Source of the DNA: Rosistilla carotiformis
GTDB taxonomy: Bacteria > Planctomycetota > Planctomycetia > Pirellulales > Pirellulaceae
Direction: 5' to 3'
DNA: 64,000 nucleotides
NCBI RefSeq assembly: GCF_007753095.1
Contig: NZ_CP036348.1
Coordinates: forward strand, 930,001-994,000
Shown in pieces: positions 3,599 through 14,299 of the stretch. Made by a program: the position numbers and the translations under genes. The notes under the pieces are model-generated. The model was not told the origin of the DNA and did not search any database. It was given only the letters and a program-made list of their open reading frames with translations. Each line of letters begins with the position of its first letter. Position 1 is the first letter of the stretch.

Positions 3599-5417
3599 AC
3601 GGGGCGGCAAAAAGTCTCGCGTTTGGAGTTGCGTAAACCTGGGTTTGCGCTAAGTTTGCTTCATGCTAACTCTACGCGACCATCATACCGGTGACCTGTT
3701 CGATCCATGGGAATATCTGGGGCCCAAGCGAAGACGTTTGCTTGATCGGAGTTGGGCCGGAGTTTTTCGGGACTATTTGTTGGAGCAGCTTCCTGTCCGC
3801 GATCTTGCGACCGGGTTTCGCGATGATTTTGGGCGTCCGACGAAGGATATCTATGTCGCGATCGGTGCGTTGATTCTTCAGCAACTCCATGATTTCACCG
3901 ACCAGCAAACCACTGAAGCAATCGCGTTGAATATCGCTTGGCATTACGCGTTGGATATCAGGCACAATTCCGATGCATACATCTGCGAGCGAACGCTCCG
4001 CAACTATCGCAAGAAGGTGCTCGACGCTGGCCTTGATCAAGTTCTTTTCCGCACGCTGACAGACAAACTCATCAAGGAGATCGGTGTCGACACAAGCAAG
4101 CAACGCCTTGACTCGACCGCAGTACGATCAGCCATCCGTGGATTGACTAGGCTGGGAATATTAGTCGAGGCAACGTGCAAGTTTCTGCGGGAGCTCAAAC
4201 GAAAGCATCCGGAACAATATTCGTTGGTCGATCCAGAAATCATTCGCAAATATGTAACGCGAACAGGCGACGGTTGCTTTGGCGACACACGGCCCAGTGA
4301 GTCAAGAAAGCGGATATCGGAAGCCGCCGGAAATGTCTTTAAACTCGTTGAGTTCTTTCAAGAAACGGAATGCTCGACTTTAGAGAGCTACCAGTTGCTA
4401 CGGAAAATTTTTCACGAGCAGTGTGAGGTCTCTAGCACAGGTGAAGCACCCGTCACTGTGCGGCCACCGAGTAAAACGGGATGTGATGGCGTGATCAATC
4501 CGGCTGATCCCGATGCTCGCTACAACAAACATCGCGGCACGGGCTATCTCGTACAGATCATGGAAACGTATGACGAGGAAGATTCCGAGGAGCCAGATAC
4601 TTCAATCACTCCAAAACCTGATCTGATCACCCATGTGGCTGTGGACCCGTTAACAATGCACGACAAAGACGCACTGACTCCTGCATTCGATGACACTGAG
4701 CAGCGTGGCATCAAGCCGCAGGAACTTCTTGCCGACTCGCACTATGGATCGACTGAGTGCATCGAAAACGGAAATGGTCGCGATGTTGAAATCGTTGCTC
4801 CGGCGCAAACGCCTAAAGGAAAGTTGCAAGGCAAGTTCACGCTTGAAGACTTTGACGTCGATGACGAAGGACGCATTACACGGTGTCCTGCCGGACAGCG
4901 GCCTGCAGAGACGAGCGTCGCTGGCATTCGTCTTCAAGTCATTTTCATGACGGAAACATGTGAAAGTTGTCCTCACAAGGATCGGTGTCCAGCATCATCG
5001 GTAGGACGTAGTTCAGTTCGCTACCAATACACACACGATCGCGTGCGCCTTCGACTACGCAGATTGAAGGAAAGAGGCGACGAGTTCCGTGACCGTTATC
5101 GATGGCGTGCCGGAGTTGAGGCAACCATGTCAAGGCTCAAGTACCAGATGGGAATGATTCGATTGCGAGTCCGAAAGATGCTCAACATCACCTATGTGGC
5201 AACCCTGCGCGCGCTCGGGCTGAACATCCGTCGCGTTGCCGCCTACCGCTCGGCAGTTGGGTAAAGCAGGTGGTCTGCGCGGGCATCTGCCAGCAATGCA
5301 TCGGCGCCACGTCTCCCTGGCCCTAGCTGCGCATCGAGAAGGTCGGCGATTGCGTGAAAAAATACTGCTGATCGAAAATTCTTCATACCATTCGAGATGA
5401 CCTTTTTGCCGCCTCAT
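3599..5417 (+). mobile_element. Complete insertion sequence with 16-bp terminal inverted repeats and 9-bp target duplication
   Basis: The element is 1,819 bp. Its left end (3599-3614) and the reverse complement of its right end (5402-5417) match at 14 of 16 positions, sharing GGCGGCAAAAAG. It is flanked by direct repeats CAAAAGTTG at 3590-3598 and 5418-5426. One transposase gene fills most of it, transcribed opposite to the lipoprotein gene it interrupts. Excision with one repeat copy restores the host reading frame exactly, which confirms the borders. The transposase resembles the DUF772/DDE_Tnp_1_6 type (IS1182-like), but a 9-bp duplication is more typical of IS4-group elements, so the family assignment is open. 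Confidence 0.9.
3663..5264 (+). CDS. Transposase, DDE type (DUF772 N-terminal region, IS1182-like)
   Basis: A 533-residue transposase that would catalyse cut-and-paste movement of its element. The N-terminal region (about 20-130) looks like the DUF772/InsH N-terminal domain. A catalytic triad can be placed at Asp150 (Q-R-L-D-S-T), Asp358 (L-L-A-D-S-H-Y-G) and Glu486 (A-G-V-E-A-T-M-S-R-L). A cysteine cluster C-E-S-C-P-H-K-D-R-C lies shortly before the last catalytic residue, as in DDE_Tnp_1_6 proteins. The frame is intact and the termini are well preserved, so the element may still be active. It is the only transposase in the window. Confidence 0.92.
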   Translation: MLTLRDHHTGDLFDPWEYLGPKRRRLLDRSWAGVFRDYLLEQLPVRDLATGFRDDFGRPTKDIYVAIGALILQQLHDFTDQQTTEAIALNIAWHYALDIRHNSDAYICERTLRNYRKKVLDAGLDQVLFRTLTDKLIKEIGVDTSKQRLDSTAVRSAIRGLTRLGILVEATCKFLRELKRKHPEQYSLVDPEIIRKYVTRTGDGCFGDTRPSESRKRISEAAGNVFKLVEFFQETECSTLESYQLLRKIFHEQCEVSSTGEAPVTVRPPSKTGCDGVINPADPDARYNKHRGTGYLVQIMETYDEEDSEEPDTSITPKPDLITHVAVDPLTMHDKDALTPAFDDTEQRGIKPQELLADSHYGSTECIENGNGRDVEIVAPAQTPKGKLQGKFTLEDFDVDDEGRITRCPAGQRPAETSVAGIRLQVIFMTETCESCPHKDRCPASSVGRSSVRYQYTHDRVRLRLRRLKERGDEFRDRYRWRAGVEATMSRLKYQMGMIRLRVRKMLNITYVATLRALGLNIRRVAAYRSAVG

Positions 5418-8408: not shown

Positions 8409-9539
8409 TCAGCTACGATCGGTTGCCGATTCGATGGGGACGGGGCGCCCGAAGTAATAGCCCTGGGCGAGATCGAAGCCGATCTGCTGGCAGAACTCAG
8501 CTTCGGCTTTACTTTCAATTCCTTCGGCAAGCGCCTGGATGTCGAGGTCGCGGACCATTTTGACCAGGGCTTCCAGCATCCGTTGACGCTCGGGACTGGC
8601 GGTATCGATGCCACGGATCAAGGACATGTCAAATTTCACGAATTCGGGACGGGCCTGAACCAATTCGCTAAGTCGTGCTTGCCCGGATCCGAAGTCGTCG
8701 TATGCCAATCCGATTCCAAGCGACTGCAGTTTGGACTGTAGTTGGCTGAGCAATTCTGGGTTGGTGACTGCCGATTCGTGAATTTCCAGTACCAGTCGCG
8801 TGCTGCCCGCCATGTCGCGGAGCAGTTCCAGCGAGGCCTCGAGCCCTTCATTGGCGAGTTCGGCGGGATGGGTATTTACAAACAGGACCGGACATTGGGG
8901 AAGGCTGCGACCGACGCGGACCCCTTCCCAACGCAACATCTGGCTGAGATCGACTTCGAGATTCAATTGCGACGCCGCTTCGAACATCGCGCCGACCGAT
9001 TCCAATCCAAAGACGCGGCCACGGCCCAAAATTTCAAACCCCAGCATCTCGTTGTCGCTCATTCGCACGATCGGTTGGAAATGTGGAACGACCAAGCGTT
9101 CGCTCATCAACCGATCGAATTGAACCAGTGCCAATGCTTGATCGCAGACGTTTTGTGGGATCGTACCCGACATTGATGCGCCAATGCTTTGGCGGCGGAT
9201 TCGGAAGAGCGCTTCGGCAAAGTGAACGAGGTCCTCTTCGCCCAGTCGTACCGGTTGTGTGACCCGTTGTCCGTTTACGAAGGTGCCGTTGGTGCTGCCC
9301 AGGTCTTGCAGCCACAGTTGTCCCTCTTCGGTCCATAGGCTGGCATGGGCGCTACTAACGGTGTTGTATCCCAGAGTCAGGTTCACGTTGGGCTTGCGGC
9401 CGACGACGAACGGTTCTTCTTCGACAGGGATAAAACGCGACACATCCCCGGGCCGAGTCGGGCCGCTAAGGAACCATACATCACTGCCAATTTCTGTTGA
9501 CAGTGGGTTGGTAGCGATCATGTTCGGAGCGATTGTCAT
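8409..9539 (-). CDS. FHA-EAL protein (phosphothreonine-binding domain plus c-di-GMP phosphodiesterase domain)
   Basis: A cytoplasmic 376-residue protein. An FHA domain (about 20-115) shows V-V-G-R-K (45-49), V-S-S-A-H (61-65) and L-G-S-T-N-G-T-F-V-N-G, the phosphothreonine-binding set. The EAL domain (about 135-370) has the signature as F-E-I-L with Glu169, plus Asn222, Glu252 in L-E-I-H-E, Asp281-Asp282 in Y-D-D-F-G-S-G, Lys302 and Glu339. All metal and catalytic positions are present, so c-di-GMP hydrolysis is plausible. It probably couples Ser/Thr kinase signalling to c-di-GMP. The start at ATG 9539 is a choice: upstream in-frame codons and Met7 are alternatives, and no strong ribosome binding site marks any of them. 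It is divergent from the ATPase/kinase pair. Confidence 0.88.
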   Translation of the reverse strand: MTIAPNMIATNPLSTEIGSDVWFLSGPTRPGDVSRFIPVEEEPFVVGRKPNVNLTLGYNTVSSAHASLWTEEGQLWLQDLGSTNGTFVNGQRVTQPVRLGEEDLVHFAEALFRIRRQSIGASMSGTIPQNVCDQALALVQFDRLMSERLVVPHFQPIVRMSDNEMLGFEILGRGRVFGLESVGAMFEAASQLNLEVDLSQMLRWEGVRVGRSLPQCPVLFVNTHPAELANEGLEASLELLRDMAGSTRLVLEIHESAVTNPELLSQLQSKLQSLGIGLAYDDFGSGQARLSELVQARPEFVKFDMSLIRGIDTASPERQRMLEALVKMVRDLDIQALAEGIESKAEAEFCQQIGFDLAQGYYFGRPVPIESATDRS

Positions 9540-9745
9540 AATCAGTGCAATCCGCAAGAGGACGGTTTGTCCATTTTGGTACCTGTTGTGTTCTGAGATC
9601 TTTCGAAGTTTAGGACGTAAAACGAGGGGTTGGATCAAGCAAAACATCTTTTTCAGGAGTTTATCCGTTCTCGCTTCCCTGGTTGATCTAGCGAGCTAGA
9701 TTTCAGCGGAACGTCCGCAAACCAATATCGCTTGACCCTCGCTAG

Positions 9746-11077
9746 GTGAACTTAGTGACCGTACTAAATCAGACGCACAGCATCGATTCAGCGTTGTTGT
9801 CTGGCCTATTAGGTGGCGATACCTTTTGGCCGACCGAACCACGCAATCTGCACGAAACGGGACTTTCGGAGTCGTATATCGATGCGTTGATTCTAAAAAT
9901 ATTTCTGGGCACCGGAACGCTCAGTGGTCGGGCGATGGCCGAACGGACCGGACTTCCGTTTTGCGTGATCGAACCGTTGCTGGAGGCCCAGCGGACACGG
10001 CAGTTGATTACGCACGTTCGCCCTGCTGCCTTTAATGACTACTACTATTCATTATCCGAAAACGGCCAAAAGCGGGCGCAGACGCACATGAGTCATTGTG
10101 CCTACACCGGGCCGGCTCCCGTTCCATTGAGCGACTATGTGTTGAGTGTCGAAGCGCAAGCCGCGGGCATGGACCCGATTGGATATGACGACTTGCGCGC
10201 CGCGCTTGCTGGGATCTCTCACAACAACGAATTGTTAGACCAGTTGGGGCCGGCGATCAACAGTAACAGTGGAATGTTCTTGTTTGGTCCGCCGGGGAAT
10301 GGGAAGACCACAATCGCCCGCTGTCTAACGCAATGCCTTGGCCAAGAAATTTGGATCCCGCATGCGTTTTTAGATGATGGCAATCTGATCAAGATCCAAG
10401 ACGATGCTTTCCATCGTCCGATGCCGATTCCCCAAACCGGCGACGGGATTATCAAGGCTCAGCAATGGGATCACCGTTGGGTCCGGATTCAACGGCCGAC
10501 GGTTATCGTCGGTGGCGAATTGGTGATGGATAACCTCGAGGTGCGGCACGACCCCCGCTCGAACACTTGCGAAGCACCTCTGCAACTGAAAAGCAACTGT
10601 GGCTGTCTATTGATCGACGACTTTGGTCGGCAGCGGATCCAGCCCGAAGAACTGTTGAATCGTTGGATCATTCCGCTGGAAAACCGGATCGATTTTCTGA
10701 CGCTGCCATCGGGCAAGAAGATTGAGATACCGTTTGAGCAGTTGATCATTTTTTCGACCAACTTGAATCCCGACCAATTGGTCGACGAAGCGTTCCTGCG
10801 ACGCGTCCCCTACAAGATCATGGTCAACGATCCGGATCCTAAAGAGTTTACGCGGATCTTCAACCACAACGTCGAGAAGATGGGCTTTCCGCCAGTCAAA
10901 GGGGCTGCCGAGCATCTTCTGCGATTCTACGAACAGAGCGGTCGGTCGCTGCGTCGCTGTCAGCCACGCGACATCCTGACCCAAGTGAACAACTTTTGTA
11001 AGTACAAGAAGATCCCACCTCAATTGAGACCCGACTTCTTGGACCAAGCATGTAAGAGCTACTTCAGCGAACTATAG
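9746..11077 (+). CDS. AAA+ ATPase with N-terminal winged-helix-like region, partner of the kinase-tubulin protein
   Basis: A 443-residue cytoplasmic protein. The N-terminal ~130 residues look helical and winged-helix-like, including 'TGLPFCVIEPLLEAQRTR'. The AAA+ core has Walker A G-P-P-G-N-G-K-T-T (181-189), Walker B C-L-L-I-D-D (287-292), a sensor-1-like I-I-F-S-T-N-L and arginine-rich helices near the end. A long insertion between Walker A and B contains many His and Trp residues. It starts at GTG 9746 (a second GTG lies 9 bases in) and ends 12 bases before the ATG of the kinase-tubulin gene, so the two are almost certainly one operon. Its function is not known; the context suggests remodelling or loading of the tubulin-like partner. 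Confidence 0.85.
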   Translation: MNLVTVLNQTHSIDSALLSGLLGGDTFWPTEPRNLHETGLSESYIDALILKIFLGTGTLSGRAMAERTGLPFCVIEPLLEAQRTRQLITHVRPAAFNDYYYSLSENGQKRAQTHMSHCAYTGPAPVPLSDYVLSVEAQAAGMDPIGYDDLRAALAGISHNNELLDQLGPAINSNSGMFLFGPPGNGKTTIARCLTQCLGQEIWIPHAFLDDGNLIKIQDDAFHRPMPIPQTGDGIIKAQQWDHRWVRIQRPTVIVGGELVMDNLEVRHDPRSNTCEAPLQLKSNCGCLLIDDFGRQRIQPEELLNRWIIPLENRIDFLTLPSGKKIEIPFEQLIIFSTNLNPDQLVDEAFLRRVPYKIMVNDPDPKEFTRIFNHNVEKMGFPPVKGAAEHLLRFYEQSGRSLRRCQPRDILTQVNNFCKYKKIPPQLRPDFLDQACKSYFSEL

Positions 11078-11089
11078 AGTGTGGGCAAA

Positions 11090-14000
11090 ATGACGATTTC
11101 AGCATTAAAAATAGAATCCGGTACGGAAACCATCGCTGGCTACAAGGTCTTGCGCAAACTAGGGGCCGGTGGTTACGGCGAAGTCTGGAGCGCTGAAGCG
11201 CCCGGCGGGATGGAAAAAGCGATCAAGTTCGTCTTCGGTTCGCATGACAGCGAACGAGGGGCGCGCGAATTGCGCTCGTTGAACCGCATCAAAGGGGTCA
11301 ATCATCCGTTCCTTTTGTCGTTGGAACGTTTTGAAATTGTCAACGGTCAATTGATCATCATCACCGAATTGGCAAGTGGCAGTTTGGAGGATATCTACAA
11401 CAAGCATCGCGAGCGCGGATCGTGCGGCATTCCAAAGTCGGATCTGTTGAATTTCCTACACGACGCCGCCGATGGTCTCGACTACCTGCACGACGAATTT
11501 CAGCTGCAGCACTTGGACGTCAAGCCGGGAAACCTGTTGATCGTTGGAGGGCACGTCAAGGTTGGCGACTTTGGTCTGCTGAAAGATCTTGGCGATGTTG
11601 AATGTTCGATGGTGGGTGGTCTGACGCCAATCTACGCGGCTCCTGAGGTGTTCGATGGTCGGCCGCATCACAACAGCGATCAGTACTCATTGGCGGTCAT
11701 GTACCAGGAGTTGTTGACCGGGCACCGGCCATTCGCGGGACGCACGATCGCGCAATTGGCGACCCAGCACGTTCATAGCGCCCCGAACCTGGAATCGCTG
11801 CCCCCGGCGGATCGTCCCGTGATTGCACGCGCATTAGAAAAGGATCCTAATCGACGGTTTGCGAGCTGCCGCGAATTGGTCAGCCGTCTGCGGCAATCCA
11901 ATGAACGGCCGATTGCCATTCCCACCCAAGCGAACCCCGTCGATGGGACGACGCAGCAGTTTGGCGGTCTCGGCGGAGGACCCGCAGGCAGCAATCGTCC
12001 GGCCGTCGACAACCTGCCCCGCCTCGATTCTCAAGAACTGGCGAACCTTGGAACCAGCCAAGCCCTGGTGATTGGTCTCGGTGGCGTGGGGCGCAGTGTG
12101 ATGGAGCAGTTGTGCCTCAAGCAAACCAACACCAATAGTGCCGATTTCGATCTGCAGGGTTTGCTGATCGATACCGATGATGCCGAAATGTATCGGTTCC
12201 GCGAATTCGAAATTGCCAACAACTTGATTTGCAATGTGCAGCGGGCCTGCTTTCCGTTGAAGAGCCCTCACGACTACCGTGATTCGCACGGCGATCGTTT
12301 CACTTCGATCAGCCGCCGTTGGATCTACAACGTTCCCAAGACACGCCGCACCGAAGGGTTGCGTCCGTTGGGACGGTTGGCTTTGATCGATCATGCGAGT
12401 CATTTGAAACGCATGCTGACCCAGTCGATATCGGAATTGATCGTCGATCCCACGGGGACGTTGAAGCCACGTATCTATGTCGTTGGATCGCTGCTGGGCG
12501 GAACGGCTAGCGGGATGTTTCTGGACGTCACCTTTATGATTCGGAATCTGTTGGACGAACACAACTTTGCCGATGTCGAAGTGCGGCCGTTGATGTTGGC
12601 ATCGGTTCCCGAAAACGTTGAAAACGCAGATCCCCTGTCGGTCGCATCGACGCATGCGGCGCTCAGCGAAATGCACTACTTCTTGCAACCTAACAAAGGA
12701 TACCCCGAGGACCGCGCCAATACCTTGGCATCGGTGCCCGCAGCAAGGACCCCGTTGCCCGCAGCTTACGTCGCGGCGCCTACGAAGGATCAGGATGGCG
12801 TCCAATTGATCTCAGACTACCTTTGGAATGACGCGTTTGTCGCACCGGCCCTGATGGATCAGGCACGGAAGCGACCGGAAGTTGATAACGCGAATCGCAC
12901 CCAATCGACGATCCGCAGCTTCGGGACCGCACCGCTACAGGTCCGCCCAACGATCGATATCGAAAGCTTGAAGAAGCGTTCGATCGATCAAGTGATTCGT
13001 GGTTGGATGGGGGATCCCAAGACGCAGCACGCCAACCTGCCTCACGATGTGATCACGATGCTCAATCAGATTGGCGTTTCACCCACGCTCTGGGCGGCAC
13101 AACAAATCGAAGACGTCTTGCACCAAAAGCCGGAAGCTTGGTGCCGCGAACTGGAGCAAACGCTTGCGACGGAACTGCAGTCGCGGCGCGATCCCAAGGC
13201 GCCCATTGCCAAAGACGCGGTGCTCTGGGCGCGTGCGAAAGCACAGCCTCTACTCGCCCAGGCGGCGGAGGTCGAGGAGCTGAACAACGACCTGCCTCCC
13301 TTGGGGCAAGGAGCGATTCCCGCGCTGATGCGGTTGATTCGCGGCAAACTGCGTGACCAAAAGCTTGATCTGTTTCAGTCGGTCGGATTGTTGCGGGCGA
13401 TCACAAAACAATGCTTCGCGTACGCTCAAGAGAACGAACGCGAGATCACCTGTCTGAAAGAACGCGCCAACGACGCGTTGCATCACTTAATGAGCGACCT
13501 AACGTCGACGCGGATCAATCAAATCGATCTGTCGAAGCTGTCCGGTGCCATGATCGATCTGATGCGGGCCGATTTGCAAAAACCCAACGGCATCGTTTTT
13601 GAAGAAATCGGCGACCGGGTGAAACGACTCGAACAAGAACTGTTGGCACACGCCAATGAACTCGCCGACCTGCACCAATTATTGCTGGGGCTCGATTTGC
13701 CCAGCGGTGCGTCTTCAAATTTGACCGAACGGAAGATCCAGCCGATCATCGCGACGGCGCTGCACGATCAGTTCGCCGATAAGCTGTTGTTCCGTTGTCT
13801 GAACTCATCCTCCCCCACTGGGCCCGCCAAGATCGGTGAGATGCTCGACAGGATGTTGGCTGCCGCCACGGCCACCGCCAACGAAATGTTGAACGATACC
13901 AGTGGAGCGGGAGTGGTTTCCGCCGAAGAATTGCAAAGCCAAATCACCGCGGCGCTCAAACAAGCGTATCCCAAGCTGCTGCGGTTTGGTGGACGCCAAC

Positions 14001-14299
14001 GCGTGCTGTTGGTCGGTGACGACAAGCGACAGCTCGATTCGCTCAGGCCGGCGATTGAAGCGGCCGTTGGAGGCGAGATCACGACCGTCGTCGCTCCCAA
14101 TGCCAAGACGATGATCCTGCACGAAGCCTCCGATATCCCCGTCGATTCCATTCTGGGGAATTTGGTGGGAACGCTGGGGGCCGATCTGACGATCGCCGGC
14201 CGGCTGATGAGCCGCTGCGATATTCAGTGGAGCGAACCAACCGAAAGCAATTCGACCGCCAAGTCGATGACGTTTGGCAGCTCCAACGACGCCTATTGA
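11090..14299 (+). CDS. Ser/Thr protein kinase fused to a tubulin/FtsZ-like GTPase domain
   Basis: A very large protein (about 1,069 residues; numbering below counts from a possible GTG start at 11081, three codons upstream of the ATG). A Hanks-type kinase domain occupies about 20-270: G-A-G-G-Y-G-E-V, Lys49 in A-I-K-F, H-L-D-V-K-P-G-N (144-151, HRD written HLD) and D-F-G (163-165). A Gly/Pro linker follows (about 275-320). From about 327 there is a Rossmann-like start A-L-V-I-G-L-G-G-V-G, then G-L-L-I-D-T-D, and at about 467-479 V-V-G-S-L-L-G-G-T-A-S-G-M, matching the tubulin/FtsZ GGGTGSG signature as in the 'tubulin-like' Pfam family. The last ~450 residues are mostly helical and unrecognised. 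No membrane segment was found. Confidence 0.82.
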   Translation: MTISALKIESGTETIAGYKVLRKLGAGGYGEVWSAEAPGGMEKAIKFVFGSHDSERGARELRSLNRIKGVNHPFLLSLERFEIVNGQLIIITELASGSLEDIYNKHRERGSCGIPKSDLLNFLHDAADGLDYLHDEFQLQHLDVKPGNLLIVGGHVKVGDFGLLKDLGDVECSMVGGLTPIYAAPEVFDGRPHHNSDQYSLAVMYQELLTGHRPFAGRTIAQLATQHVHSAPNLESLPPADRPVIARALEKDPNRRFASCRELVSRLRQSNERPIAIPTQANPVDGTTQQFGGLGGGPAGSNRPAVDNLPRLDSQELANLGTSQALVIGLGGVGRSVMEQLCLKQTNTNSADFDLQGLLIDTDDAEMYRFREFEIANNLICNVQRACFPLKSPHDYRDSHGDRFTSISRRWIYNVPKTRRTEGLRPLGRLALIDHASHLKRMLTQSISELIVDPTGTLKPRIYVVGSLLGGTASGMFLDVTFMIRNLLDEHNFADVEVRPLMLASVPENVENADPLSVASTHAALSEMHYFLQPNKGYPEDRANTLASVPAARTPLPAAYVAAPTKDQDGVQLISDYLWNDAFVAPALMDQARKRPEVDNANRTQSTIRSFGTAPLQVRPTIDIESLKKRSIDQVIRGWMGDPKTQHANLPHDVITMLNQIGVSPTLWAAQQIEDVLHQKPEAWCRELEQTLATELQSRRDPKAPIAKDAVLWARAKAQPLLAQAAEVEELNNDLPPLGQGAIPALMRLIRGKLRDQKLDLFQSVGLLRAITKQCFAYAQENEREITCLKERANDALHHLMSDLTSTRINQIDLSKLSGAMIDLMRADLQKPNGIVFEEIGDRVKRLEQELLAHANELADLHQLLLGLDLPSGASSNLTERKIQPIIATALHDQFADKLLFRCLNSSSPTGPAKIGEMLDRMLAAATATANEMLNDTSGAGVVSAEELQSQITAALKQAYPKLLRFGGRQRVLLVGDDKRQLDSLRPAIEAAVGGEITTVVAPNAKTMILHEASDIPVDSILGNLVGTLGADLTIAGRLMSRCDIQWSEPTESNSTAKSMTFGSSNDAY

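Follow-up and report, generated by a model that had tools for sequence, protein, structure and literature searches.

A kinase-tubulin fusion protein with conserved FHA-EAL and AAA+ gene neighbors in planctomycetes: a possible signaling module

Proteins that combine a protein kinase with a tubulin-like domain have been described previously. The available text of a 2010 study reported an N-terminal kinase in four FtsZl1 proteins of planctomycetes (PMC2875224), the same kinase-FtsZl1 fusion was repeated in the accessible part of a later paper (PMC9871819), and, according to the sections available of a third, the tubulin-like domain was the commonest among the domains exclusive to cytoplasmic kinases in a planctomycete set (PMC11032199). 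As far as the 2010 text is available, Makarova and Koonin were unable to find the T6-H7 elements of the FtsZl1 family, and they listed vWA, GTPase, OmpA-like and kinase genes as neighbors; a reviewer pointed to one case, in Pirellula staleyi, of a diguanylate phosphodiesterase next to FtsZl1 (PMC2875224). The words FHA and EAL had no match in that text, and its single mention of AAA concerned chelatases (PMC2875224). No description of a trio of FHA-EAL, AAA+ and kinase-tubulin genes was found in the literature searched, which for the 2010 study was the available main text, and within these partly available sources the remark on P. staleyi is the nearest published one. The kinase-tubulin fusion is therefore already known; what is new is the breadth of its conserved company.

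Here, we analyzed a 64,000-nucleotide stretch of the Rosistilla carotiformis genome (referred to as the window). A sequence-only reading of this DNA had proposed two plus-strand genes, for an AAA+ ATPase and for a Ser/Thr kinase fused to a tubulin/FtsZ-like domain, next to a divergent FHA-EAL gene. Both open reading frames were found, and Pfam searches confirmed the divergent neighbor (FHA, 1e-17; EAL, 4.5e-42). The features of the locus, in window coordinates, are as follows.

8409..9647, minus strand: FHA-EAL gene, 412 aa as called (ORF list and Pfam).
9219..9407, minus strand: FHA domain, residues 81-143 (Pfam), with phosphopeptide residues G83, R84, S98, H101, N120 and N125.
8442..9113, minus strand: EAL domain, residues 179-402 (Pfam), with the catalytic set complete in this protein.
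9746..11077, plus strand: AAA+ ATPase, 443 aa (ORF, conserved motifs, predicted model), with an insert separating Walker A and Walker B.
11081..14299, plus strand: Ser/Thr kinase-Tubulin_2 (FtsZl1) fusion, 1072 aa (Pfam, predicted model, Foldseek).
11141..11875, plus strand: kinase domain, residues 21-265, with K49, HLD 144-146, N151 and DFG 163-165.
11876..12064, plus strand: kinase-tubulin linker, variable and rich in Thr in many relatives; a candidate phosphothreonine docking stretch, as a lead only.
12065..12793, plus strand: Tubulin_2 nucleotide-binding domain, residues 329-571 (Pfam, model, Foldseek).
12074..12091, plus strand: T1-like loop GLGGVG, residues 332-337 (sequence, alignment).
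12497..12514, plus strand: T4-like glycine loop GGTASG, residues 473-478; the consensus of 22 relatives is GGTGSG.
12794..14296, plus strand: C-terminal 501 residues of the fusion, fast-evolving, with a strand at ~610-618, long helices at ~709-962 and an alpha/beta end at ~972-1031.

The proposed gap of 12 bases between the ATPase and the fusion holds if the ATG at 11090 is the start of the latter, but shrinks to 3 bases with the GTG at 11081. The true start of the FHA-EAL protein is probably further in than called, because among the listed matches the alignment starts no earlier than query residue 21, and mostly at 30-75, in all but two relatives of the same genus. A transposase-like ORF (recognized by eye only) is located at 3663-5264, some 3 kb away from FHA-EAL.

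The union of a kinase and a tubulin-superfamily domain in one chain was borne out by Pfam (Pkinase, 4.6e-32; Tubulin_2, PF13809, 2.9e-20, with 73.3 bits vs. a cut-off of 27) and by Foldseek. As the earlier reading had it, the kinase is a complete Hanks-type enzyme in which the Lys, Asp, Asn and DFG Asp are all present. In an alignment of 70 fusion proteins, K49, N151 and D163 occurred in every sequence and D146 in 69, and the HRD motif took the form HLD, with L145 in 70/70. The two glycine motifs quoted earlier are also present; G334 and G473 were found in 70/70 fusions, G474 in 69/70 and G478 in 66/70. We then modeled residues 321-1072 using 22 sequences (mean pLDDT 81.3, pTM 0.65). The best 50 of the 64 Foldseek matches at E <= 0.001 were all tubulin-superfamily proteins by title, which agrees with the tubulin-like fold that had been predicted; the best match was CetZ2 (9.8e-06), TubZ followed with 2.1e-05, and FtsZ and tubulin entries were also present. 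Normalized to the whole query, TM-scores were low (0.19-0.24), which would be expected with the long C-terminal part left unmatched; this part follows the FtsZ-like domain with long helices at model residues 389-642. Additional invariant or near-invariant residues among the 22 sequences were clustered around model residues 106-117, and inspection of these sequences by eye revealed no near-invariant acidic column of the FtsZ-type T7 motif after the FtsZ-like part.

The tubulin part is divergent, showing 20-35% identity to 21 named relatives, with 9-25% beyond it. When this divergent part was used as query, a scan of genome contigs yielded zero relatives and a phmmer search of PDB sequences nothing meaningful. 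In the linker, the motif DT[KRQ][TS] was present in 8 of the 41 non-redundant linkers from the order set vs. 0.36 expected from shuffling, in 0 of 17 linkers of other families and not in the window's own linker; it was chosen after inspecting the linkers and is a lead only. Two kinase-tubulin genes in tandem were observed in three loci of family f109 (L202, L205 and L235), many f109 genomes had three Tubulin_2 matches, and kinase-less Tubulin_2 proteins occurred in more distant planctomycetes (L222, L223, L224 and L226).

The AAA+ protein reached no Pfam cut-off, the best E value being 0.0017 for the Walker A stretch only. Walker A, Walker B, an S-T-N stretch and several arginines were near-invariant in 39 AAA+ sequences (the window's included), and the predicted elements of the N-terminal part have a winged-helix-like look. 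With a model built from 40 sequences (pLDDT 84.7, pTM 0.83), Foldseek detected 8p49, an uncharacterized Pyrococcus protein (4.8e-11), BchI (3.8e-07) and many MCM chains, and further matches to Lon, ComM and sigma-54 activators, all with low TM-scores (0.25-0.39 by query length among the 50 matches listed). We take MoxR/Mg-chelatase/MCM to be the appropriate class name for these fold neighbors. The unusual long insertion noted earlier in the ATPase appears, judging from the model, to be compatible with this insert-bearing class. A spastin-type severing ATPase was also considered; the top PDB sequence matches of the AAA+ profile (spastin and VCP chains) reach little beyond Walker A, and the idea was dropped because the fold search groups the protein with 8p49, BchI and MCM.

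The nearest AAA+ relatives among 80 named loci came from Rhodopirellula and Ca. Laterigemmans (67-70% identity). The same genome has a second AAA+ copy (G000:C1:1345705, 46% identical), and no kinase-tubulin gene was found in the stretch around it (L182, G000:C1:1337000-1356900); comparable unlinked copies are present in many genomes of the family. In a Rubripirellula record (L287, 4706-11260), this AAA+ type lies inside an open frame of 2185 residues. In Obscuribacterales (L316, L317 and L305), far AAA+ relatives adjoin DUF58 and/or TgpA-transglutaminase genes, and such a neighborhood is a known context of MoxR ATPases.

The divergent gene was proposed to encode a reader of the phosphothreonines made by the kinase. 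FHA proteins of the mycobacterial type are known to read Ser/Thr kinases. We divided 65 distinct FHA-EAL proteins into type I, with at least 34% identity to the window's protein (n=50), and type II, with lower identity (n=15). Six FHA residues (Gly-Arg, Ser, His, Asn), which we assumed to be the relevant phosphopeptide-binding positions, were intact in 65/65. Ten EAL positions, presumably the catalytic and metal-binding set, were all present in the window's protein and all intact in 49/50 type I proteins, with L168 departing at two of them and counted as is, vs. 0/15 type II proteins (L262, which ends at a contig edge, was also counted as is). Mean column conservation, calculated on the set before duplicate removal, was 0.57 for FHA vs. 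0.63 for EAL in type I and 0.66 vs. 0.42 in type II. Judging from these residues, the EAL domain of type II is degenerate and could have only a binding or scaffold role left. The FHA residues were retained even where the EAL catalytic set was lost. This conserved neighbor looks fit to read phosphothreonine and to break down a signaling nucleotide. That the phosphothreonine reader is the part kept throughout argues that the product of the kinase ties the pair together.

We next analyzed 119 genomes of the window's family, 78 of which had a Tubulin_2 match (a single one in 72) and 41 none. The association with the ATPase gene, on which the earlier reading depended, is conserved: an AAA+ relative (at least 48% identity in these linkage counts) lies close upstream on the same strand in 58 of the 78 genomes. 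In 51 of these it precedes the Tubulin_2 match by 0.97-1.5 kb, a spacing that roughly equals the extent of the kinase part, and in the other 7 by 4.1-4.8 kb. G682 carries its AAA+ gene on the opposite strand, and G712 has it 31 kb away; the remaining 18 genomes have no linked AAA+ relative, and 10 of these 18 still hold all three genes, with contig ends possibly hiding some linkage. In 56 of the 78 genomes, an FHA-EAL gene was located no more than 6 kb upstream (47 on the opposite strand, 9 on the same). The search that caught these 56 gave no match in this interval in the other 22, but four of the latter have degenerate FHA-EAL relatives below the search cut-off (L170, L171, L172 and L174), which raises the count to at least 60/78. 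In the co-occurrence counts, AAA+ proteins (at least 50% identity) were present in 70/78 genomes with Tubulin_2 vs. 1/41 without, and FHA-EAL proteins in 69/78 vs. 5/41, where Fisher p values ignore genome kinship.

A second set comprised 52 loci hand-picked from the Tubulin_2 matches (the window and 51 others); 51 belong to the window's own order and one (L175) to family f3. The fusion was present in 50 of them, accompanied by FHA-EAL in 46 and by AAA+ in 40. Among 80 named loci drawn by AAA+ similarity, 24 had a kinase-tubulin frame, which in every case came immediately after AAA+. The window's own order has the trio regularly; beyond this order, FHA-EAL is not tied to the fusion. In family f3, 58 genomes have an FHA-EAL protein, 24 with a Tubulin_2 match and 34 without, and in a tree the fusion protein of the f3 trio representative (G291) is placed next to L144, within the clade of the window's order. 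In the loci examined from families f109, f110 and f112, neither FHA-EAL nor AAA+ accompanied the fusion.

Four gene orders were observed. The FHA-EAL gene was divergent from the AAA+-fusion pair in 26 loci (order 1); FHA-EAL, AAA+ and fusion followed each other in the same direction in 2 (order 2); FHA-EAL directly preceded the fusion in 14, where AAA+ was either further upstream or outside the stretch examined (order 3); and AAA+, fusion and FHA-EAL were arranged in this sequence in 4 (order 4). The other fusion loci had neither partner (3) or AAA+ alone (1). On a quick tree of 70 kinase-tubulin proteins, at least three changes among these orders were required, and order 3, which has the degenerate EAL, was confined to one branch with a support of 88; in two of its 16 rows, no partner is linked.

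That relatives usually keep the trio together suggests one signaling machine. We regard the module as well supported as a functional unit, and its chemistry is what we infer below. There is, in our view, about an even chance that the three proteins constitute one signaling module of Pirellulales (the order to which the named relatives point) that works in the following way. The kinase-tubulin protein would serve as a nucleotide-dependent scaffold, whose fused kinase may phosphorylate either the fusion protein's own threonines, with the Thr-rich linker as a possible site, or those of a close partner. By binding this phosphothreonine, the FHA domain would keep the FHA-EAL protein attached to the scaffold. 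The common type of EAL domain, with its catalytic residues, might lower cyclic di-GMP locally; the degenerate EAL of the other type might have no function beyond binding or scaffolding. Finally, the MoxR/Mg-chelatase-like ATPase may assemble, remodel or dismantle the complex using ATP. The phosphorylation target, FHA docking, GTP hydrolysis, filament formation, any control of these two by phosphorylation, the role of the ATPase and the cellular output are all putative in this scheme. A more far-reaching version, which we consider rather improbable, is that in these FtsZ-less bacteria a kinase-bearing tubulin-like filament, once assembled, marks itself with phosphothreonine and recruits a cyclic di-GMP phosphodiesterase; the state of the filament would then become readable through a local decrease in cyclic di-GMP, the MoxR-like ATPase would reset the filament, and in a sister lineage the enzyme would have decayed to a pure phosphothreonine-reading scaffold.

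An alternative possibility is that the kinase-tubulin protein organizes a membrane-remodeling or secretion-type complex whose assembly is regulated by FHA-EAL and AAA+. A membrane complex was argued for FtsZl1 by Makarova and Koonin, in the available text, from its vWA, GTPase and OmpA-like neighbors (PMC2875224), and the resemblance of our AAA+ model to the MoxR/Mg-chelatase class, together with the three far AAA+ relatives beside DUF58 and/or transglutaminase genes, fits this idea. However, when we compared the neighbors by clustering, no fixed vWA or OmpA-like partner was apparent, because the next commonest family beyond the trio occurred in 9 of 41 loci and the others shuffle. We regard a membrane complex as unlikely.

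The three genes could also be co-inherited neighbors that share no mechanism, in which case FHA-EAL would serve some other kinase and the ATPase would have a client of its own. Planctomycetes are rich in kinases, and FHA-EAL and AAA+ relatives also occur apart from the fusion. Against it speak at least three changes of order during which the partner was retained, the shuffling of other neighbors, and the persistence of all three genes in 10 of the 18 genomes that lack a linked AAA+. We regard this explanation as quite unlikely. A defense or conflict system is very unlikely: its kinase, NTPase and second-messenger parts would resemble those of NTP-dependent conflict systems, some with tubulin homologs, and tubulin-bearing GTPase-centered systems are described in the available text of PMC7159879, but the matches of our kinase domain to PADLOC mad6 (8.8e-46) and PD-T4-6 are, in our judgement, what any Hanks kinase would give, the weak best profile matches of the AAA+ protein to anti-phage ATPases (PADLOC IetA, 2.5e-10; NCBIfam IteA, 1.6e-08) fall far short (34.1 bits for IteA vs. 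a curated cut-off of 510), and a single Tubulin_2 gene in 72/78 genomes with a trio recurrent across the whole order is unlike patchy defense islands.

The mode of division of FtsZ-less planctomycetes and their kin was called a major mystery in the accessible part of a published account (PMC5147048). The window genome (7.4 Mb, single contig) had one Tubulin_2 match and zero PF00091 (FtsZ/tubulin) matches in a search whose control was positive in 13 of 14 genomes, as well as two EAL and ten GGDEF matches. The Tubulin_2 gene is thus the one tubulin-superfamily gene from the two Pfam searches, and it comes together with a kinase and an ATPase, and with both a reader of phosphothreonine and a cyclic di-GMP enzyme. 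The 41 of 119 family genomes without a Tubulin_2 match indicate that the fusion is no general FtsZ replacement. The fusion and its neighbors make it directly testable whether phosphorylation, cyclic di-GMP and a tubulin-like protein are linked.

In comparison with known systems, the window protein resembles FtsZl1 (Tubulin_2, PF13809) in its N-terminal kinase, FtsZ-like domain, long helical C-terminal part and phylum. Its conserved neighbors are FHA-EAL and AAA+; those given in the available 2010 text are vWA, GTPase, OmpA-like and kinase genes. Its predicted fold matches those of CetZ, TubZ, FtsZ and tubulin, from which it differs by the lack of a recognizable T7, a different long C-terminal part and the fused kinase. 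Similarly, the predicted fold of the AAA+ protein matches MoxR, Mg-chelatase (BchI) and MCM, yet with low TM-scores and with no Pfam cut-off reached. The FHA-EAL protein keeps the key residues of FHA readers and the catalytic set of EAL phosphodiesterases, but is distinguished by having both domains in one chain beside a kinase-tubulin fusion, and by a second type with a degenerate EAL.
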